From IMG/VR virus record IMGVR_UViG_3300046001_007206, positions 1 to 20,640 of that record: a stretch of DNA of 20,640 nucleotides; one strand, 5' to 3'. Numbering within the stretch: position 1 is the stretch's first letter; each line of letters starts with the position of its first letter. Source of the DNA: a virus. Positions 4,056 to 19,367 of the stretch are shown in pieces. A model generated the notes under the pieces. That model was not told the origin of the DNA. It saw only the letters and a program-made list of their open reading frames with translations, and ran no database searches. A program made the translations under genes and the position numbers.

Positions 4056-4891
4056 ATAAAATAGGTGTTGTTGGATTAGGTTATGTGGGTACCGCGGTTC
4101 AAAAAGGATTTGAATCTATACGAACGGTGGCCACTTACGATATTATAAAAGAATGTAATACAAACTCCATAGAAGATTTGGTAATGCAATCACAAATAAT
4201 TTTTATTTGTGTACCAACACCAATGAATACGAATGGTACATGTAATGTTGATATTGTAAAATCTGTATTGAAGGAAATATCTGAAGTGGAAACATGGCAT
4301 AAGCCAATCTGCGTATTAAAATCCACAGTAACGCCAGGTACAACAAACGAATTGGTTCGTGAATTTTCTAATTTAACAATTTGTTTTAATCCTGAATTTC
4401 TGACGGAAAGAAATTACATTAATGATTTTATGTCACAAGTAAATATTATTATTGGATATTCTACAGCACCGAAGGAAATACAACCTGTACTAGATTTGTA
4501 TTACGAACGATTTCCAAATTCACAGGTATGGACCACCCCCGCAACAGAGGCGGAGATGATAAAGTATGTTGCTAATACTATGTTATCAACGAAGGTCGCG
4601 TATTTAAATGAAATATATCAGATATGTCAAAAAACAAATATTAATTATGATTCAATTGCAAATGTATTAAAATTTGATGACCGACTTGGAACAACACATT
4701 GGAATGTACCTGGACACGATGGTAAATATGGGTTTGGTGGCACGTGTTTTCCAAAAGATTTGAATGCATTAATACAATTTAGTGAACAACATGGTCAACC
4801 GACTCCTTTATTAAAAGCTATTTGGGAAAAGAATCTTGAAGTTCGACCCGAACGAGATTGGGAACACGATAAAGGACGAGCGGTAACATAA
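4052..4891 (+). CDS. UDP-glucose/GDP-mannose dehydrogenase family, short form
   Basis: A 279-residue NAD-dependent nucleotide-sugar dehydrogenase. Visible landmarks are GLGYVG at 8-13 (NAD-binding loop), CVPTP at 53-57, STVTPGTT at 91-98, NPEFLTE at 113-119, a Lys-containing EMIKYVANT at 168-176, and GFGGTCFPKD at 227-236 with the expected catalytic Cys232. Family members normally exceed 400 residues; this one stops soon after the catalytic Cys and lacks the C-terminal substrate-binding domain. Either it is a naturally minimal phage form or it is truncated. It overlaps the glycosyltransferase by four bases. The likely product is an acidic UDP-sugar for transfer by that neighbour. Confidence 0.85.
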   Translation: MNKIGVVGLGYVGTAVQKGFESIRTVATYDIIKECNTNSIEDLVMQSQIIFICVPTPMNTNGTCNVDIVKSVLKEISEVETWHKPICVLKSTVTPGTTNELVREFSNLTICFNPEFLTERNYINDFMSQVNIIIGYSTAPKEIQPVLDLYYERFPNSQVWTTPATEAEMIKYVANTMLSTKVAYLNEIYQICQKTNINYDSIANVLKFDDRLGTTHWNVPGHDGKYGFGGTCFPKDLNALIQFSEQHGQPTPLLKAIWEKNLEVRPERDWEHDKGRAVT

Positions 4892-4920
4892 TATAGATTA
4901 TAATATATTATTGGGGTGAC

Positions 4921-4949
4921 TTGACTTTTTCAGATCAGCTCGTTATATT
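4921..4949 (+). promoter_or_regulatory. sigma70-type promoter before membrane protein and tmRNA
   Basis: TTGACT at 4921-4926, a 17-base spacer and TATATT at 4944-4949, placed 25 bases before the start at 4974. It probably drives that gene and the tmRNA behind it. Confidence 0.7.
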
Positions 4950-4973
4950 AATACTATACACCACGGAGGTGCT

Positions 4974-5204
4974 ATGTCAACTCAAGAAAAAAATCGTGTA
5001 ATTGTTATCGAATTGGGACCAGCCACACTATTATGGATGATGCAAATTCCATTGGTATGTTTGAAGTTAACAAATGTACTAACTCTGCCATGGTGGTTGG
5101 TGTTGATTCCAATGTGGGGAGTATTCGCATTAACAATAATTCTTAGTTTAGTAGTGGGTGTTATGTGGTTAGTAAAAAATACATTTTATTTTACTAAACG
5201 ATAA
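4974..5204 (+). CDS. small two-helix membrane protein
   Basis: A 76-residue protein with a strong GGAGG (4964-4968) before its ATG. Residues about 13-37 and 39-67 are hydrophobic (LVCLKLTNVLTLPWWLVLIP, then FALTIILSLVVGVMWLV), consistent with two membrane helices joined by a short turn containing PMW. A short charged N-terminus and a Lys-rich C-terminus suggest both ends in the cytoplasm. Function is unknown. A holin is possible by size and topology, but lysis genes are not visible nearby, so this is only a suggestion. It ends 13 bases before the tmRNA. Confidence 0.7.
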   Translation: MSTQEKNRVIVIELGPATLLWMMQIPLVCLKLTNVLTLPWWLVLIPMWGVFALTIILSLVVGVMWLVKNTFYFTKR

Positions 5205-5217
5205 TATGTATTTGTAC

Positions 5218-5563
5218 GGGCATGACCTGGCTTCGACGGGGTGTGGACGATTAAGTGTTGTATCTCGTTTGGTAAGACGAGTAAAACAGACCAACAATTT
5301 CAAACGGCAACCAAAACTTAGCCTTAGCAGCCTGATCTTTTAGATCCGCTGCTTGACAAGATACTGATCCATATAAGGTATTTTGTAATCGAATATGGTA
5401 TAACATTAGAAAATGAATTGATATCTAATGTAGAATTCTTCAATTCAAAGTTGCGTAGGTTCGTCACTTATTAAACACGCGATGTAGTACATACAAGTGA
5501 CTATATACATAAAAACTTAATAAAAAGCAATCTCGGACGCGGGTTCAAATCCCGCCATGTCCA
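5218..5563 (+). ncRNA. ssrA: transfer-messenger RNA (tmRNA)
   Basis: A 346-nt tmRNA, which rescues stalled ribosomes and tags the unfinished protein for proteolysis. The ends form the tRNA-Ala-like domain: GGGCATG (5218-5224) pairs with CATGTCC (5556-5562), including the G3-U70 pair that alanyl-tRNA synthetase recognises, with A73 at 5563. The T-arm GCGGG-TTCAAAT-CCCGC sits just before. The 5' side has the conserved CTGGCTTCGACGGG. The tag frame reads GGC AAC CAA AAC TTA GCC TTA GCA GCC TGA (5306-5335), that is GNQNLALAA; one codon earlier would add Asn. The LALAA end is a classic ClpXP degradation signal. No CCA is encoded. tmRNA is known in some phages but is uncommon. Confidence 0.95.
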
Positions 5564-5599
5564 CTTAAAGGTTCATGTTAATAATTTGATGGAGTATCT

Positions 5600-5872
5600 A
5601 TGTTCAAATTTATTCAACATTGGATCAACACCTTGATGTTATTAATATCAGCATCATCGCAAAAAGAAGTTATTGTAGGGCGGTATAATCTTTTAATGGA
5701 CGAACTTGGTCAAGCACGTACACTATCAGAATTGGTAAGTATTAAAAAACATATACTTGCATTTGATATATCTGTTAAAAAAATGGGTTCCCCGGAGTGG
5801 GCAACTAATTACACACGGTATTTAGATGCTCGGTGGAATCGCCGATATAGACTATGGAAATCACGGGATTAA
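5600..5872 (+). CDS. hypothetical phage protein
   Basis: A 90-residue protein with GGAG nine bases before the ATG. The N-terminus (FIQHWINTLMLLISA) is weakly hydrophobic; the rest is helical and basic, ending in RYLDARWNRRYRLWKSRD. No recognised family. It is the first gene after the tmRNA and is followed closely by the gene at 5877. Confidence 0.65.
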   Translation: MFKFIQHWINTLMLLISASSQKEVIVGRYNLLMDELGQARTLSELVSIKKHILAFDISVKKMGSPEWATNYTRYLDARWNRRYRLWKSRD

Positions 5873-6564: not shown

Positions 6565-7095
6565 ATGGCTATAGAAACAACTCGATGTGTTGTTTTGAAT
6601 GCCACATACGAACCAATCGACACGGTATCGGCAAAACGAGCATTACTACTGTTTTTAGAAGGTAAAGCGGTTATTGTGGAAGCACATCCAGAATTTGTTA
6701 TGCGATCTCCTAGGCAAACATTTCCTGTCCCTCTGATGATTGCCCTTAAACATTATATTAAGGGAAGACGCGTGTTTACAACCAAAGCATTATTGACACA
6801 AAAAAATTTATTTACACGAGATGGATACACTTGTCAATATTGTGGTAGAAAGAAAAGCCAATTAAAATTATCGGAATTTTTAACGAGGGATCATGTGATT
6901 CCTACGGCAAAGGGCGGACGAGATATATGGACAAATGTTGTTACTTGCTGTAACGAATGTAATAATAAAAAATCTGATTATTTGATGCACGAAATTAATA
7001 TGACATTGTTAAAACCATTACAAGAACCAACGATATTCGAAATTTGGACACGACAACAACAAAAATTATACGGATGTAATAAAGTGGTATTATAA
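6565..7095 (+). CDS. HNH endonuclease (cellular-type family)
   Basis: A 176-residue nuclease. The N-terminal part (CVVLNATYEPIDTVSAKRAL, about 8-27) is typical of a widespread HNH family of bacteria and phages, unlike NUMOD-type homing enzymes. The HNH core spans about 86-138: CQYC at 90-93, the catalytic DH at 109-110, an Asn near 124 and CNEC at 129-132, giving a ββα-metal fold with a structural zinc. It should cut DNA; in phages such proteins act in packaging, recombination, defence or mobility, and the role here is not shown. It starts three bases after the previous stop, and its stop overlaps the next start by one base. Confidence 0.85.
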   Translation: MAIETTRCVVLNATYEPIDTVSAKRALLLFLEGKAVIVEAHPEFVMRSPRQTFPVPLMIALKHYIKGRRVFTTKALLTQKNLFTRDGYTCQYCGRKKSQLKLSEFLTRDHVIPTAKGGRDIWTNVVTCCNECNNKKSDYLMHEINMTLLKPLQEPTIFEIWTRQQQKLYGCNKVVL

Positions 7096-7790
7096 TGTTA
7101 GTTGAATCAAAAATAAATGGTAAGAAGTGGTTGTGGGTTAATATACAAAAAACCGCAACCACTTCGACATTAAAAACTTTCTTTCCAGAGAAAGAATATA
7201 ATCAGCAATCACATCAAATTTATGTTGATTTGGTTCGAATGTATGGATACCACGATACATTTACAATGGTAAGAGATCCTATTGATAGATTTTTATCGGG
7301 GATAAATCATTTATTCAGCGTGTGTGAATGTAAACGATGTATAATAGATGTAACCATACCGACAACAACCGAAGAAGTTATTTTGTTTCTTAGTGACATG
7401 TTACGACTAAAAAAGAAAACACCAAATTTTTTTGAAACTGCTTATAGAAATTCACAAAATAGTTTACATTTAGAAGTGGTGAATAGTATACAAAAAAGAT
7501 TTTCTCGTAATATTACAGTAGGTGATGTACAATGTATTCGTTGGCCAGTAATAATACCTCAACACTATATCTTACACAAAGCAACAAATATAAAAATTTT
7601 TAAATATGAACAAATAGAACAGTTTTTTCATTTTGTAGAGACTGAACTAGGATACAGCGTAGTACAAGAAAAATTTAGAAACTACACAAATAAACTAAGT
7701 AATGTTGATGTGAATAATTCCACATTAAGAACTTTGATATATGAATTACACAAAGAAGATTTTAAATTATACGGTTATAACATATGTTAG
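7095..7790 (+). CDS. sulfotransferase-like protein, copy 1
   Basis: A 231-residue protein with the two landmarks of the PAPS-dependent sulfotransferase superfamily (P-loop-like fold). VNIQKTATTST at about 15-25 corresponds to the 5'-phosphosulfate loop, with Gln where IPKTAST-type enzymes have Pro. VRDPIDRFLSG at 59-69 corresponds to the 3'-phosphate-binding motif. A four-cysteine cluster (CECKRC, around 77-82) may add a zinc or disulfide feature. It would move sulfate from PAPS to a sugar or protein hydroxyl. The next gene is a diverged tandem copy with the same first six residues, overlapping by seven bases. Confidence 0.75.
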   Translation: MLVESKINGKKWLWVNIQKTATTSTLKTFFPEKEYNQQSHQIYVDLVRMYGYHDTFTMVRDPIDRFLSGINHLFSVCECKRCIIDVTIPTTTEEVILFLSDMLRLKKKTPNFFETAYRNSQNSLHLEVVNSIQKRFSRNITVGDVQCIRWPVIIPQHYILHKATNIKIFKYEQIEQFFHFVETELGYSVVQEKFRNYTNKLSNVDVNNSTLRTLIYELHKEDFKLYGYNIC

Positions 7791-8482
7791 TTGAATCCAA
7801 AATTGATAAATCACAGTGGATATGGATTAATATACCCAAAACAGCATCAACATTTATTCGAAATTGTTTGTATGGAAATAAAAATATATTAGATGGACAA
7901 ACACACCTAACCTATTTAGAAAATGTGCATTTGTATGGGCAACAAAACGCATTTACCGTGGTACGAGATCCATTAACAAGATTTAAATCTGGATTAAATC
8001 ATATTTTTAGTGAATGTAATTGTGGTAAGTGTACTATCTTTTATGATCGACCGCCAACAACAATTGAGGTAGTTTCTTTTTTAAGTGATTTAGTAAAATT
8101 AAATAATAAACATGAAAATTTTCACTATTTATCATACCAAACAGGTTCCAGTAAACTTTGGTTGGAAATATTGAAAAGTATGCAAATAAATTTTATAAAA
8201 AGTAGAATATTGAATGATCCTTCCAATTGTGTAATGTGGGCTTTTATATTACCTCAATTTCTATACCTTGACAAAATACAAAGTCGGGATTATATTTTTA
8301 AATATGAAACATTAAACGACTGTGCAGAGTTTATACAGAATAGATTGGGATATACAGTAGATACATCGGTTAAACACAGACAATATTCATATAAACTTTC
8401 TAATGTAGATTTTACAAATAAAGAACTTTTGGATCTATTAAAAAATTATTATAAAGAAGATTATACTGAATTAAACTACTAA
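7784..8482 (+). CDS. sulfotransferase-like protein, copy 2
   Basis: A 232-residue paralogue of the preceding gene. It keeps MLVESKI at the start, the canonical INIPKTASTF phosphosulfate loop at about 15-24, and VRDPLTRFKSG at 60-70. The Cys cluster is conserved (CNCGKC), and both end in a similar YKLSNVD segment. Divergence is high, so the duplication is old or the two have different acceptors. This copy has the better 5' loop and is more likely active. There is no carbohydrate kinase or PAPS synthase in view, so PAPS would come from the host. Confidence 0.78.
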   Translation: MLVESKIDKSQWIWINIPKTASTFIRNCLYGNKNILDGQTHLTYLENVHLYGQQNAFTVVRDPLTRFKSGLNHIFSECNCGKCTIFYDRPPTTIEVVSFLSDLVKLNNKHENFHYLSYQTGSSKLWLEILKSMQINFIKSRILNDPSNCVMWAFILPQFLYLDKIQSRDYIFKYETLNDCAEFIQNRLGYTVDTSVKHRQYSYKLSNVDFTNKELLDLLKNYYKEDYTELNY

Positions 8483-9196: not shown

Positions 9197-9274
9197 GCAC
9201 TTATGGCGGAATTGGCAGACGCACCAGCCTTAGGAGCTGGCGGGAAACCGTGGGTTCGAATCCTACACCTTCCG
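9197..9274 (+). pseudogene. tRNA-Leu(UAG) with non-pairing acceptor stem
   Basis: The body is a good class II tRNA-Leu: a D-arm with GGCGGAATTGG, anticodon loop CTTAGGA (UAG), a short variable arm and T-arm GTGGG-TTCGAAT-CCTAC. The acceptor strands do not match: 5' GCACTTA (9197-9203) against 3' ACCTTCC (9267-9273) gives only two pairs, and base 73 is G rather than the A expected for Leu. The 5' end is identical to that of the tRNA-Leu at 9560; the 3' end is identical to that of the tRNA-Ser at 14551. It is probably a recombination hybrid that cannot fold normally. Confidence 0.75.
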
Positions 9275-9559
9275 TACATATAATTGTAGCGAATCATAGT
9301 GAGTAGTCCGGATAGGCGCTATGAATAACGACTTAGGGGGGCGTTGATAGGTGTGCCTAAGCCTTAACTATCTGCTCGGGATAGGTAAAGGGGAGCAACA
9401 AAAGCCGTAGAATGTCTTCCTCTATATTATAGTGGCGAGACTAGCATGGTGTTAGGGATGGCCTCTTAACATACGTCGATGAACTGCTGTTAGACAGTCA
9501 TTCTACTACTCATTGCCAGTTGAGGAAAGCGCGCGGGCTCATGACCCGAACTGGTATAC
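9275..9559 (+). ncRNA. structured non-coding island A
   Basis: A 285-base stretch between two Leu tRNAs with no gene but many hairpins. Pairs seen include CATAG 9295/CTATG 9319, CTTAGG 9332/CCTAAG 9356, TGCTC 9373/GAGCA 9393, an 8-bp closing stem GTAGAATG 9407-9414/CATTCTAC 9499-9506 that encloses TGTTA 9450/TAACA 9467, and CCAGTT 9516/AACTGG 9549 enclosing CGGG-CTCATGA-CCCG. The last hairpin resembles the anticodon arm of an initiator tRNA. G+C is higher than in nearby genes. No known RNA family was recognised. Confidence 0.45.
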
Positions 9560-9639
9560 GCACTTATGGCGGAATTGGTATACGCGCTTGTCTTAGGAAC
9601 AAGTCCGAAAGGATGGGGGTTCAAGTCCCTCTAAGTGCA
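9560..9639 (+). tRNA. tRNA-Leu(UAG)
   Basis: Acceptor GCACTTA/TAAGTGC pairs perfectly; anticodon loop CTTAGGA between CTTGT and ACAAG gives UAG. Class II variable arm TCC-GAAA-GGA, T-loop TTCAAGT, A73. It is the intact counterpart of the hybrid at 9197, and both have the same anticodon. Confidence 0.95.
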
Positions 9640-11014: not shown

Positions 11015-11049
11015 TTTTTAGTTTTGTTCATTTTTATTTGGAGAATAGT

Positions 11050-12201
11050 ATGAAAAAATTTTTGTTAGTAGCAGTTGCATCACTTTCACTCATGGCATGC
11101 ACAGATGATGTCATTACCACGCCTGCGTTTGAATCCAAGGTCACGACCATTGTGGTGACGCCCACCGCCTCCCAGTTAGAAATGGGGCGGACCGTCACGT
11201 TAACGGCAGTTGTCAAGGATCAGCGTGATTCTGTCATGACGGGCAAGACGGTGACATGGATGTCAAACAACACAACTGTTGCCACGGTTGTAACCGCGGT
11301 GGCCACTGCAGGCACGACCACGGCAACGGTCACGGGTGTCACCAAGGGCACGGCAAATATTGTCGCCTCGGTTGAAGGCAAGAGCACAACAATTCCTGTG
11401 TTCGTGGTTGATCCCACCGTCGCCACGGTCACTGTTACGGCAACGGTCCCCACATCGTTTTTCGTGGGAGAGACATTACAGGCAACGTCTACTGCACGAG
11501 ATGCCAGTAATAACGCCTTGACATCATTCATCACCACCTGGACATCAAGCGCGCCCACCGTTGCCTCTGTGTCTACGTCAGGATTGATCACGGCATTGAC
11601 GGCAGGCACCACCACCATCACGGCATCTTCTGGTGGAAAGACGGGCACGTTGAACATCACGGTGACCTTGGTCCCGGTTGCCCGTGTGGTTCTCACGTTG
11701 CCCAAGGCGGCACAGGTGGGACGTAGCACCAGTGTTGCGGCAGATTTGCTTAATAGTTCAGGCACGGCATTGTCAAGCACATCTCGTACATTTGGCTGGC
11801 ATAGCAGCAATGAGTCCATCGCCACGATTTCTGCAACAGGTGTCATCACTGGCCTTACCTACGGCAGCACGATTGTCACTTGCGTTGTTGAAAACAAAGT
11901 TGGCACATTGGTGGTGAATGTCACGGAAACGGGCATCAATTACATTGTGGTGTCACCTGATAGCTCAGACCTCAAGGTGGGTGCCACGCGCCAATACACC
12001 GCTACTGCGTTTGATGTTGATAGTGTGGCGTTGAGTGTGTCGGCATTGGCTGGTCGCCCGTTCACCTGGACCGTCGCCAATACGGAAACGGCACGAGTGT
12101 CCGATACAGGGCTTGTGTTGGGTATCGCTACAGGAACCACATTGGTGTCAGCTTCAATTGGAGCAGTTTCAGATAATGCAAAAGTGGTAATTGTTCCATA
12201 A
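11050..12201 (+). CDS. lipoprotein with four BIG2-type Ig-like repeats
   Basis: A 383-residue exported protein. GGAG (11040-11043) fixes the start at 11050, giving MKKFLLVAVASLSLMAC, a signal peptide with lipobox LMAC and acceptor Cys17. Four bacterial Ig-like repeats follow (about 33-112, 113-193, 195-280, 285-383), each with Thr/Val-rich strands and a GxxTGLxxGTTTI-like end (for example SGLITALTAGTTTITA). It would be anchored in a bacterial membrane facing outward. G+C and codon use are clearly higher than in neighbours, and the style is frequent in Gemmatimonadota, so recent acquisition from a host is likely. It could act in adhesion, surface masking or superinfection exclusion; none is shown. 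Confidence 0.88.
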   Translation: MKKFLLVAVASLSLMACTDDVITTPAFESKVTTIVVTPTASQLEMGRTVTLTAVVKDQRDSVMTGKTVTWMSNNTTVATVVTAVATAGTTTATVTGVTKGTANIVASVEGKSTTIPVFVVDPTVATVTVTATVPTSFFVGETLQATSTARDASNNALTSFITTWTSSAPTVASVSTSGLITALTAGTTTITASSGGKTGTLNITVTLVPVARVVLTLPKAAQVGRSTSVAADLLNSSGTALSSTSRTFGWHSSNESIATISATGVITGLTYGSTIVTCVVENKVGTLVVNVTETGINYIVVSPDSSDLKVGATRQYTATAFDVDSVALSVSALAGRPFTWTVANTETARVSDTGLVLGIATGTTLVSASIGAVSDNAKVVIVP

Positions 12202-14545: not shown

Positions 14546-14550
14546 AAATT

Positions 14551-14632
14551 GGAAGGTTCGCATAATGGTATTGCACCGGTCTACTAAACCGACAACCGTA
14601 AGGTTATGTGGGTTCAACTCCCTCACCTTCCG
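14551..14632 (+). tRNA. tRNA-Ser with ACU anticodon
   Basis: Acceptor GGAAGGT/ACCTTCC, variable arm AACC-GTAA-GGTT, T-loop TTCAACT and G73 fit tRNA-Ser. The anticodon loop is CTACTAA, so the anticodon reads ACU, with A at position 34 instead of the universal G (GCU). The first base pair of the anticodon stem is a C-A mismatch and the T-stem has one T-T. A34 is avoided here because inosine would also read the Arg codon AGA. It may be decaying or may reflect special decoding. Confidence 0.85.
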
Positions 14633-14659
14633 TAATATAAAAAATTAATAAAGTACCCC

Positions 14660-14803: not shown

Positions 14804-15012
14804 TTTGTTGTAGAATCTACCCGCGGTAGGAGTATACTTCCCGCGCCACACGATTAATTCTCTATCGGCCCTTACGCGAGACACCACTACACCGGTGCAT
14901 GGGAAATACCGTAAGCACGCCCTCGTGAATGGAAAACATGTGTGAGGATGGCACCATGAAGAATAGGTAGATTCTCCCCTATAAAATGGGGGGATGTAGT
15001 ACCATCCATTTT
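14804..15012 (+). ncRNA. structured non-coding island B
   Basis: No gene; a 10-bp closing stem AGAATCTACC (14812-14821)/GGTAGATTCT (14966-14975) encloses several hairpins: CGCGG 14822/CCGCG 14841, CTTACG 14871/CGTAAG 14910, and CACG-CCCT-CGTG near 14916-14927. Two more hairpins follow outside (CCCC with GGGG near 14976-14991, and GGATG with CATCC just before the next tRNA). The base composition is GC-rich for this genome. A compact, separately folding RNA is likely; no family was recognised. Confidence 0.5.
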
Positions 15013-15113: not shown

Positions 15114-15187
15114 GCGGGTGTAGCTCAGTTGGTTAGAGCGCAACTTTACCAAAGTTGAGGTCGCCGGTTCGAACCCGGCCACCCGCT
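15114..15187 (+). tRNA. tRNA-Gly with ACC anticodon
   Basis: Closely matches the usual bacterial tRNA-Gly: acceptor GCGGGTG/CACCCGC, D-arm GCTCAGTTGGTTAGAGC, T-arm GCCGG-TTCGAAC-CCGGC and T73. The anticodon loop is TTACCAA between CAACT and AGTTG, so it reads ACC where GCC is normal. A34 in a Gly tRNA is very unusual in bacteria. It is the only Gly tRNA in the window with normal D- and T-loops. Confidence 0.92.
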
Positions 15188-15293: not shown

Positions 15294-15384
15294 GGGCGAG
15301 GTAACGTGCAGAAAGACGTTTCTGTGGGAGTCACCACACGGTAGCCCCGTGTTCAGGAAGCCGGTTCGAATCCGGCCTCGTCCA
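15294..15384 (+). ncRNA. tRNA-like molecule without a normal anticodon arm
   Basis: The outer parts are perfect for a tRNA: acceptor GGGCGAG/CTCGTCC (G3-U70 included), T-arm GCCGG-TTCGAAT-CCGGC, and A73. The 48 or so bases between are not: they form CAGAAA-GACG-TTTCTG, TGTGG-GAGTCA-CCACA (6-base loop, no U33 in place) and ACACGG-TAGCC-CCGTGT, and no D-loop GG exists. The G3-U70/A73 features would let AlaRS charge it in principle, as with tmRNA. It may be a degenerate tRNA, or a tRNA mimic with another job. Its total length is 91 nt. Confidence 0.6.
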
Positions 15385-15387
15385 CTT

Positions 15388-15485: not shown

Positions 15486-16142
15486 ATGAAAACTTGTCCA
15501 AAATGTAAAACACCGCACGATAAACAAGGTACATTCTGTAGTAGAAAGTGTGCTAATAGTAGAAGCTGGTCGATAGAGGATAAAGAAAAAAAAAGAACAG
15601 CAAATTTACAATCACCTAAAATACTATTGCTAACCTCGCGTATAAAAAGTTGTCAAATCTGCGGAGTGGAGTTTCAAACGACACATCGAGTATCCAGAAG
15701 TAAAGCTTGTTGCGGGGAAGTGTGTCAAAAACAATTTATGTTTAATAGTAATTCTACTGCTCAACAGAAAAGATGTCAGTCATTAAGTGAAAAACTTCGA
15801 TTGAGAGATATTGGCAGGCGTGGCGGGTTTGGTAAAAAGGGAACAACTGCAGGTGGGACAAAATATCAGTCTACTCTGGAAAAAAATTGTTTTGAATATT
15901 TAGAAAACAAACATATACCATTTATAGCACATAGACCCCTACCCAATTCATCAAAAATATCTGATTGTTATATACCGTCGTTGGATTTGTGGATAGAAAT
16001 AGATGGCATTGATAGAGAAAAACGACAGAAGTGGTTAGAAAATGAATATAGATTTTGGCAAGATAAAATGCAGCAATATGAATCTCGAAATCTAAAACTA
16101 GCTGTAGTAAAAACAGTAGATGATTTGGCTCGCTTAGTGTAG
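15486..16142 (+). CDS. putative homing endonuclease, VSR/EDxHD-like, with zinc fingers
   Basis: A 218-residue protein. The N-terminal half holds two zinc-finger-like modules (C4, C7, C18, C22; then C56, C59, C75/C76, C80) for DNA contact. The C-terminal half has a PD-(D/E)XK-type core: E132 in QSTLEKNCFEYLE, D160 in KISDCYIPSLDLW and E171/D173 in WIEIDG, the layout of Very-short-patch-repair-like nucleases used by homing enzymes of the EDxHD group. A TTAGGT-like GGFGKKG segment lies between. It should cut a DNA site, probably in the tRNA region. Its last codons (LARLV) and stop lie within tRNA-Val (from 16128), so the two genes share 15 bases. No strong ribosome site is visible. Confidence 0.78.
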   Translation: MKTCPKCKTPHDKQGTFCSRKCANSRSWSIEDKEKKRTANLQSPKILLLTSRIKSCQICGVEFQTTHRVSRSKACCGEVCQKQFMFNSNSTAQQKRCQSLSEKLRLRDIGRRGGFGKKGTTAGGTKYQSTLEKNCFEYLENKHIPFIAHRPLPNSSKISDCYIPSLDLWIEIDGIDREKRQKWLENEYRFWQDKMQQYESRNLKLAVVKTVDDLARLV

Positions 16143-16200
16143 CGGTTTGCACGTTTGGTTTACATCCAGAAAGTGACAGGTTCAAATCCTGTAGCGAGCA
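16128..16200 (+). tRNA. tRNA-Val(UAC)
   Basis: Acceptor GCTCGCT/AGCGAGC, anticodon loop TTTACAT between TTTGG and CCAGA (UAC), T-arm GACAG-TTCAAAT-style loop with CCTGT, A73. Its first 15 bases are also the 3' end of the endonuclease gene. Confidence 0.94.
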
Positions 16201-16216
16201 CTTACCTTTTAACCAA

Positions 16217-16733: not shown

Positions 16734-16839
16734 GAGAGGGACCACTAATAAAGGGCTCCAAAGCAGCGTCGATGCAAGCGGGAGTCGTCTGGAGTGATGC
16801 CAGACCGAAGATAGGGAACTGCGTTAAAAAGACCCTGCC
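16734..16839 (+). other. structured stretch before an atypical tRNA-Gly
   Basis: No gene. Hairpins GTCTGG/CCAGAC (16787-16805) and AGGG/CCCT (about 16812-16836) lie between ATGCAAGCGG (16772-16781) and CCGCCTGCAT (16838-16847), which are complementary. The latter contains the 5' acceptor strand of the tRNA-Gly at 16840, so the two folds exclude each other. Confidence 0.4.
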
Positions 16840-16910
16840 GCCTGCATAGTGTAGAAGCAACATGCGACCCTTCCAAGGTTGAGTCCCGGTGGCAGAATCC
16901 GGTGTGGGCT
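16840..16910 (+). tRNA. atypical tRNA-Gly(UCC), no GG in D-loop, altered T-loop
   Basis: Acceptor GCCTGCA/TGTGGGC pairs fully with wobbles; D-stem GTGT/ACAT; anticodon loop CTTCCAA between CGACC and GGTTG (UCC); T73 as in Gly. The D-loop is AGAAGCA, lacking the G18-G19 pair, and the T-arm is CCGG-TGGCAGAAT-CCGG, lacking TTC. The canonical D-loop/T-loop contact is therefore impossible. Stems are intact, so this is not random decay. Standard tRNA finders may miss it. Confidence 0.7.
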
Positions 16911-18304: not shown

Positions 18305-18922
18305 ATGGCAAACCTAGGTGGATATAGAGAAGGATCGGGAAGAAGTAAGTCAGGGTATTATAAAGGAATCTATTGCGGATCTACTTATGAACTTTGTTGG
18401 GTGATATATGCACTCGACAACGGAATAGAATTTGATAGATTTAAAGGAATACTGCGAGATAATAATCTATCCTATGTTCCCGACTTTCTCTTGAAGGATG
18501 GAAAAACAATAATAGAATTAAAAGGATATGAACTCAAAGAATCTGTGAATAAAAAAACGCAATTAGCAGAAAGTCTCGGGTATACTGTAATTGTCTTACG
18601 AAAAAATGATTTAAAAGATGTATTTTCATATGCAGAACAAAAATATAAAACTAAGAAATTTTATACATTGTATGATGAATATAAACCAATATATGAATAT
18701 CAATGTGCTCAATGTGGTTCTAAAATTTTAAGAGATAAGCAATGTAAAAAATCCATCGCAGTTTGTTCACGAAAATGTTCAATGTTGCATAACAGACTAG
18801 TTCAAGTATCATCTAGGATAGGTACTCCCAATCAAAGAGCTAAAGAGTTTTATAATAAACACAGAGACAGAGTTTTAGCTAGACGAAGAGAACTCTACTT
18901 AGAAAAAAAATTGGCCTCATAG
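18305..18922 (+). CDS. putative homing endonuclease, PD-(D/E)XK type, with C-terminal zinc finger
   Basis: A 205-residue protein. The start (GGYREGSGRSKSGYYKG) is a basic, Gly-rich DNA-contact segment like those of phage homing enzymes. The nuclease core is clear: E29 in GSTYELCWVIYAL, D60 in YVPDF and E71-x-K73 in IIELKGY, a full PD-(D/E)XK set. The C-terminal part has C134, C137, C154 and C158, a zinc finger, then a basic helix. The domain order is opposite to that of the enzyme at 15486. The stop TAG is made of bases 8-10 of the downstream tRNA-Glu, so the gene ends in the tRNA. The promoter at 18165 and a tRNA-Glu remnant lie upstream. Confidence 0.8.
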   Translation: MANLGGYREGSGRSKSGYYKGIYCGSTYELCWVIYALDNGIEFDRFKGILRDNNLSYVPDFLLKDGKTIIELKGYELKESVNKKTQLAESLGYTVIVLRKNDLKDVFSYAEQKYKTKKFYTLYDEYKPIYEYQCAQCGSKILRDKQCKKSIAVCSRKCSMLHNRLVQVSSRIGTPNQRAKEFYNKHRDRVLARRRELYLEKKLAS

Positions 18923-18984
18923 ATTAGTGGTTAGATCGACGCTCTTTCAAGGCGTAGGGCGGGTTTCGAATACCCGTGGGGCTA
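18913..18984 (+). tRNA. tRNA-Glu(UUC)
   Basis: Acceptor GGCCTCA/TGGGGCT (first pair G-T), anticodon loop CTTTCAA between ACGCT and GGCGT (UUC), T-arm CGGGT-TTCGAAT-ACCCG, A73. The 5' ten bases overlap the endonuclease gene. It matches the anticodon of the broken copy at 18229. Confidence 0.93.
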
Positions 18985-19008
18985 CTATTAACGGTATGTA
19001 ATTATTAC

Positions 19009-19083
19009 CCGCCACGAGCCAGCTAGGTTGAAGGCGCTCGTCTTATATACGAGAGATGCTCGGTTCAAATCCGAGGTGGCGGA
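19009..19083 (+). tRNA. tRNA-Ile(UAU)
   Basis: Acceptor CCGCCAC/GTGGCGG, anticodon loop CTTATAT between CTCGT and ACGAG (UAU), T-arm CTCGG-TTCAAAT-CCGAG, A73. Most bacteria read AUA with a lysidine-modified CAU tRNA instead; a UAU tRNA needs no TilS. Confidence 0.93.
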
Positions 19084-19097
19084 CTTTTTGAAAATAT

Positions 19098-19171: not shown

Positions 19172-19367
19172 TTAGTAATTCCCGTCCGTTTCTATATGCA
19201 GTGGACGTTAAATAAAGCATATTCGGTACATGAACTCCGACAATATTCATGAGTGGTCGCACCAGCTCAAGTGGTGGAACGGGTTCGGGAAAAGTATTGA
19301 TTAGCTACCAATATTTGGGGAACCTACAAGATACCGTGGAAAGTATCTGATAATCCCCGCCCACTAT
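19172..19367 (+). ncRNA. structured non-coding island D
   Basis: No gene. Stems seen: TTCCCG 19179/CGGGAA 19286 closing the first half, CATGAA 19229/TTCATG 19246, CACC/GGTG near 19259-19276, AGTATTG 19293/CAATATT 19309, and GGGG 19317-19320/CCCC 19355-19358 enclosing AGATAC 19329/GTATCT 19343. Nearly every segment has a partner, so a compact RNA is likely. It does not match islands A or B in sequence, and no known family was recognised. Confidence 0.5.

Follow-up and report, generated by a model that had tools for sequence, protein, structure and literature searches.

The window, a 20,640-base IMG/VR virus record analyzed over its full length, carries a one-piece tmRNA gene (ssrA) on the plus strand at positions 5218-5563. 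A complete tmRNA with the tag GNQNLALAA had been proposed here in the original prediction, and two programs agree on it. ARAGORN calls a one-piece tmRNA with this tag at 5218-5564, and the Rfam family RF00023 matches 5218-5566 with 108.9 bits against a cut-off of 47, covering the full model in linear order (model positions 1-374). Position 5563 is the discriminator A, so that the gene ends there, as had been predicted, and the mature RNA lacks an encoded CCA. The linear match and the one-piece call rule out a two-piece (permuted) tmRNA. Both ARAGORN and an alignment with 17 relatives place the tag reading frame at 5306-5335 of the plus strand (GGC AAC CAA AAC TTA GCC TTA GCA GCC TGA), an internal open frame with a stop codon and a protease-type C terminus. 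G3-U70, the alanine identity pair, is found in the acceptor stem in all 18 aligned rows.

The neighboring features lie on the same strand. A sigma-70-like promoter site (TTGACT-N17-TATATT, 4921-4949) precedes a 76-aa membrane ORF (4974-5204; phrog_1374, function unassigned), which ends 13 nt before the tmRNA starts. Downstream lies a 90-aa ORF (5600-5872) that is kept beside the tmRNA in near relatives. No intrinsic terminator was found within 4850-5700.

A phage tmRNA lineage with a conserved tag frame

Besides the window, the same tmRNA lineage was found on 19 contigs, giving 20 records in all. Eight contigs were found via the downstream 90-aa protein and a pattern written on the tag gave the same eight, while a pattern on the tmRNA 5' end matched 17 contigs, 11 of them new. 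The new contigs carry the tags GNNQLALAA (one), GNYTLALAA (six) and GNYNLALAA (four). In two contigs, L008/L021 (a near-twin of the window) and L012/L017, the contig starts inside the gene and the tmRNA is thereby truncated. Loss of the tag frame in relatives had been named as evidence that would speak against the gene; it was not seen, as a frame of the form GN-x-x-LALAA is open in 20 of 20 records. Within the near subgroup GNQNLALAA is identical in all seven rows, and GN-x-x-LALAA holds in all 18 full rows. A deviating ARAGORN tag for L014/L019 (GKEFFNSKL...) was rejected as a miscall, since the alignment shows an unbroken GNQNLALAA frame at the corresponding position. Between the subgroups the codons of LALAA differ only synonymously and the amino acids at tag positions 3 and 4 vary, which points to selection on the peptide tag and not only on the RNA.

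The tag was also used to look for a host. Genome contigs scanned with the tag pattern gave four matches: two tmRNAs of Mollicutes, whose tags are different (GNQNLAFAA and GNQNFAFAA), and two loci without an ARAGORN tmRNA call. A looser pattern gave ten matches in 395 Bacteroidota genomes, a sample of that phylum, and ARAGORN recognizes eight of them as tmRNAs, with the tag GNEEFALAA in seven and GNNNFALAA in one. These tmRNAs are 48-56% identical to two phage rows and single out no host. None of five tag strings occurs in the papers searched, and window positions 5000-5800 gave zero DNA matches in the named-phage collection. The nearest named relative is Microcystis phage Mel-JY01, reached through one baseplate protein of a related contig (40.7%). 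It has no tmRNA over the cut-off, and the host is thus not settled by this relative.

Compensatory changes in the tmRNA structure

We aligned 18 full tmRNA genes, 13 of them distinct, and compared them with a structure containing four pseudoknots that was written from the window sequence. Across the 18 rows, 93.9% of the paired cells can pair, compared with 84.1% in shuffles, and 37 pairs have changed on both sides compared with 21.1; none of 500 shuffles was as high in either measure. The covariation score was 0.331 versus 0.162 in shuffles (0/500 as high), and slid versions of the structure reached at most 0.098, a comparison that favors the structure over the slid controls because it was derived from the window. 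The count of additional pair types, one of five measures, was unexceptional (65 versus 61.2, with 43 of 500 shuffles as high).

Strong compensatory change was seen in the pseudoknots, the T-arm and the acceptor stem of the 18 full genes. The 5' strand of the acceptor stem (5218-5224), which includes the G of G3-U70, pairs with 5556-5562, and in its pairs 5 to 7 both partners have changed. The T-arm (5539-5555), matched by RF00023 and the alignment, is 100% paired and three of its five pairs have changed on both sides. Alignment and pair counts also support pseudoknot PK1 (5264-5294, with stems 5264-5268/5277-5281 and 5269-5273/5290-5294) and helix H5 (5326-5353), which holds the tag end and the stop codon. 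In PK2 (5358-5398) the second stem is 100% paired with four pairs changed on both sides, and in PK3 (5404-5447) the first stem is 100% paired with all six pairs changed on both sides. The second stem of PK4 (5451-5501) is likewise 100% paired. The secondary structure with pseudoknots that characterizes RF00023 is therefore conserved, weakly so in parts of PK3 and PK4: in this alignment a distant subgroup lowers pairing in the second stem of PK3 (76.9%) and in the first stem of PK4 (62.8%), either through misalignment or through real divergence. Judged from its sequence, the gene at 5218-5563 is a selected tmRNA and no remnant.

A promoter-like site accompanies the tmRNA

The original prediction had placed the tmRNA behind its own promoter and a membrane gene. 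The site at 4921-4949 is the only good promoter site upstream of the tmRNA. A promoter scan of 4850-5700 found five sites, compared with 4.3 (SD 2.2) in shuffles, a count at chance level. The promoter call is supported not by this count but by a comparison of 17 loci, which were scanned over 500 nt upstream of the tmRNA (the eighteenth, L010, was omitted, its tmRNA being identical to that of L009). Using the pattern TTGA(C/T)(A/T)-N16-18-TA(T/C)(A/T)(A/T)T, which was written after seeing the site in the window, a promoter-like site was found in 17 of 17 loci where shuffles led us to expect 0.3. The stretch between site and tmRNA varies: it holds the 76-aa membrane ORF in the window and different small ORFs in several relatives, and it is empty in six (L055, L056, L058, L061, L062 and L064), where the site stands 55 nt before the tmRNA, within the 88-nt gap after the upstream ORF. 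The constant partners thus appear to be the promoter-like site and the tmRNA, not the membrane gene. The predicted upstream promoter is borne out to this extent, but it is not the tmRNA's own, as in the window it is shared with the membrane ORF.

The phage and its possible partners

Contigs of the relatives encode T4-like baseplate wedge proteins and the window encodes a DsbA late-transcription protein, which together suggest a T4-like and probably virulent phage. SmpB (PF01668) was found in 0 of 20 contigs (9 and 11 searched), an absence that weighs little because most are fragments, the largest having 166,598 bases; the same search found SmpB in 10 bacterial control genomes. Given this absence the tmRNA would use the SmpB of the host, and it probably also works with host alanyl-tRNA synthetase and proteases.

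The window further holds 22 tRNAs called by ARAGORN, all on the same strand and from position 9560 on. Among them are Ser(ACT) at 14550-14633, Gly(ACC) at 15114-15187 and Ile(TAT) at 19009-19084, whose anticodons are unusual in bacteria; L041 and L054 have a Ser(ACT) tRNA as well. Two more tRNA-like sequences, one Leu-like (9204-9266) and one Gly-like (16840-16910), lie above the Rfam cut-off and were not called by ARAGORN. Four long tRNA spacers (9283-9559, 14805-15012, 16734-16839 and 19173-19366) contain extended hairpins and no clear ORFs, and apart from tRNA-like matches no Rfam family reached its cut-off in them. Two adjacent similar ORFs occupy 7095-8482, the first of them with a match to a phage sulfotransferase family (phrog_3347). 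At 11038-12201, a lipoprotein-like ORF that contains Ig-like Big_2 domains has a GC content of 52.7% compared with 36.9% for the window and may therefore have been acquired recently from a host of higher GC content.

Ordinary ribosome rescue as the likely role

The structure, the covariation, the alanine identity pair, the conserved tag frame and the promoter-like site are best explained by a working one-piece tmRNA that performs ordinary ribosome rescue with host factors, a reading to which we give a probability of roughly 0.8 and from which we infer expression, charging, tagging, proteolysis and benefit. The tmRNA would be transcribed from the host-type promoter together with the neighboring small ORFs, trimmed by host RNase P and completed with CCA by the host enzyme, or by a phage enzyme not seen here. 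Host alanyl-tRNA synthetase would charge it through G3-U70, and host SmpB and EF-Tu would bring it to ribosomes stalled at the ends of broken messages. There it would add A-GNQNLALAA to the stalled peptide, after which the fragment would be removed by host proteases of the ClpXP type and the ribosome recycled. The likely benefit is that ribosomes would be kept free for phage translation while RNA of the infected cell is degraded or cut, with the tmRNA acting alongside the 22 or more tRNAs that the phage itself encodes. The available text of PMC10264068 proposes that phage tRNAs counter tRNA-cleaving defenses, and a tmRNA beside a tRNA array would fit such a counter-defense view.

Our data add a well-supported phage tmRNA lineage from uncultured T4-like phages, with 20 records and four variants of the tag; several of these phages carry large tRNA sets. 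Such conservation speaks for an advantage to phages that bring ribosome rescue of their own, a benefit of which, to our knowledge, little has been measured. To test it, the lineage provides naturally varying tags and a promoter-like site that is conserved.

Instead of serving general rescue, the tmRNA might direct host proteins, or a single specific target, to degradation, for example to recover amino acids or to weaken a defense. The conserved LALAA ending would suit such a role. However, it is established that trans-translation acts on stalled ribosomes and not on chosen proteins, and neither an adaptor nor a target was seen here. Although host-protein tagging has been suggested for phage Melnitz in the available text of PMC9004378, we therefore consider it unlikely for this lineage.

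Nuclease-like ORFs that end in tRNA genes

Two nuclease-like ORFs on the plus strand of the window end inside tRNA genes. The first (15486-16142, no Pfam family) has its stop codon at 16140-16142 inside tRNA-Val (16128-16201), and the second (18305-18922, weak DUF559 match) has its stop codon at 18920-18922 inside tRNA-Glu (18913-18985). Joint control of the tmRNA with nuclease messages that may lose their stop codon had been raised as a possibility in the original prediction. In such an arrangement, RNase P would strip the stops of the two messages at tRNA-Val and tRNA-Glu and the phage tmRNA would clear the products, so that the nucleases stay low; tRNA maturation, nuclease dose and ribosome rescue would then form one circuit. 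With arfA, a nonstop message that occurs naturally and is controlled by tmRNA is described in the available part of PMC10107115, and the position of both stop codons in the window would allow a similar switch.

The relatives of the two ORFs bear on this idea. The 15486-16142 ORF has only two, both 100% identical, and is uninformative on nonstop control. For the 18305-18922 ORF we found 47 related loci, 45 of which were usable in that the stop codon lies inside the locus. Sixteen of the 45 end inside tRNA-Glu in sense orientation, as the switch would have it, but seven end inside an antisense tRNA-Glu and 12 stop 0-19 nt before a sense tRNA-Glu, and in these RNase P cannot create a nonstop message. 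Three more lie just downstream of tRNA-Glu and seven have none near. The antisense and exact-stop cases suggest residence next to the target tRNA gene rather than a processing switch.

Carriage of the tmRNA follows the overlap no better. A tmRNA over the cut-off occurs in five of the 47 nuclease contigs, namely L068 and L072 (antisense), L070 (downstream), L074 (sense overlap) and L096 (no tRNA-Glu near). Counting L067, the near-twin of the window whose tmRNA is truncated by the contig end, carriage is 2/16 among sense-overlap loci versus 4/29 among the others, in contigs that are fragmented. The other 18 contigs of the tmRNA lineage are absent from the 47 nuclease matches, and the tmRNA of the host would serve such a switch equally well. 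An arfA-type conserved stop loss together with a tmRNA was thus not found among these contig fragments, and the proposed joint control is not supported, given overlap in both orientations and a tmRNA carriage that does not track it. Even for the viruses with sense overlap (16/45), such a circuit now appears very unlikely.

The family itself (window 18305-18922 and L067-L111) lies beside tRNA-Glu(TTC) in 38 of 45 loci, in 23 of which the stop codon is inside the tRNA-Glu gene, sense or antisense. Sense, antisense and near-stop placements tie the family to the tRNA-Glu gene itself, and this nuclease-like family, with its weak DUF559 match, looks like a tRNA-Glu-linked homing nuclease. We rejected the idea that the nuclease split tRNA-Glu and left a 5' half upstream, as the downstream tRNA-Glu compared with 150 nt upstream never beat shuffles (23 loci).

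Hardly credible, finally, is a passenger or decayed remnant of imprecise excision or recombination at the host ssrA, a common attachment site, for although ssrA is a known integration site in the available texts of PMC9004378 and PMC12656738, the gene is complete, compensatory changes and an intact tag frame run through the lineage, and the absence of an integrase (PF00589) from 20 of 20 contigs, mostly fragments, together with the T4-like baseplate genes of the relatives argues against an attachment-site remnant.

Other tmRNA-like RNAs and comparison with known systems

Several further tmRNA-like RNAs were found in the window and in other phage contigs. A tRNA-like RNA at 15294-15387 of the window has an acceptor stem with G3-U70 and a T-arm and lacks an ordinary anticodon arm. 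We rejected it as a second, tag-less tmRNA-like RNA, as it scores 20.4 bits with RF00023, below the cut-off, and misses what we take to be the tmRNA D-loop motif. A 112-nt RNA in L050 (LR756508.1, 414804-414915; RF00023 58.2 bits, G3-U70, no tag domain) is a possible tag-less tmRNA; a pattern from a tag-less RNA of a huge phage gave zero matches in viral contigs. The same 484-kb uncultured phage holds a full-length tmRNA match (L048, 92434-92880) with a 32-aa open frame ending PAAV, whose reading as a tag is uncertain. Among contigs found through the nuclease, L114 and L116 carry other phage tmRNAs, to which ARAGORN assigns a 29-aa tag with the end ELALAA and a 19-aa tag with the end LQFAA, respectively; reading by hand gave tmRNA open frames of 32 aa (end LMAA) in L117 and of 33 aa (end LLAA) in L118.

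The tmRNA of the window shares with the bacterial one-piece tmRNA (RF00023) the acceptor stem with G3-U70, the T-arm, H2, H5, four pseudoknots and the tag end ALAA, and differs from it in being phage-encoded and in having no CCA in the gene. Compared with 10 bacterial tmRNAs, two phage rows show identities of about 47-56%. Among phages, cluster C1 mycobacteriophages carry tmRNA. They represent another phage group with another host, and, like the phage of the window, they have a large tRNA set, their tRNA arrays being described in the available part of PMC10264068. Bradyrhizobium elkanii phages also have tmRNA genes, likewise without proven function as far as the available text of PMC12656738 goes; according to the same text these phages are without tRNAs, whereas the tmRNA of the window lies in a region with at least 22. 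In the Methylophilales phage Melnitz, a T4-like virulent phage, a complete tmRNA likewise stands behind an early promoter. In the available part of PMC9004378 its tmRNA is two-piece, permuted and under a glutamine riboswitch, whereas that of the window is one-piece and the Rfam search of the window reported no riboswitch. The same source counts tmRNA in 402 of 18,146 phage genomes, with 133 unique structures, 53 of them two-piece. At 2.3% of phage genomes, phage tmRNAs are fairly called uncommon, as in the original prediction, though they were already known, and the gene described here belongs to an already published kind of phage gene.
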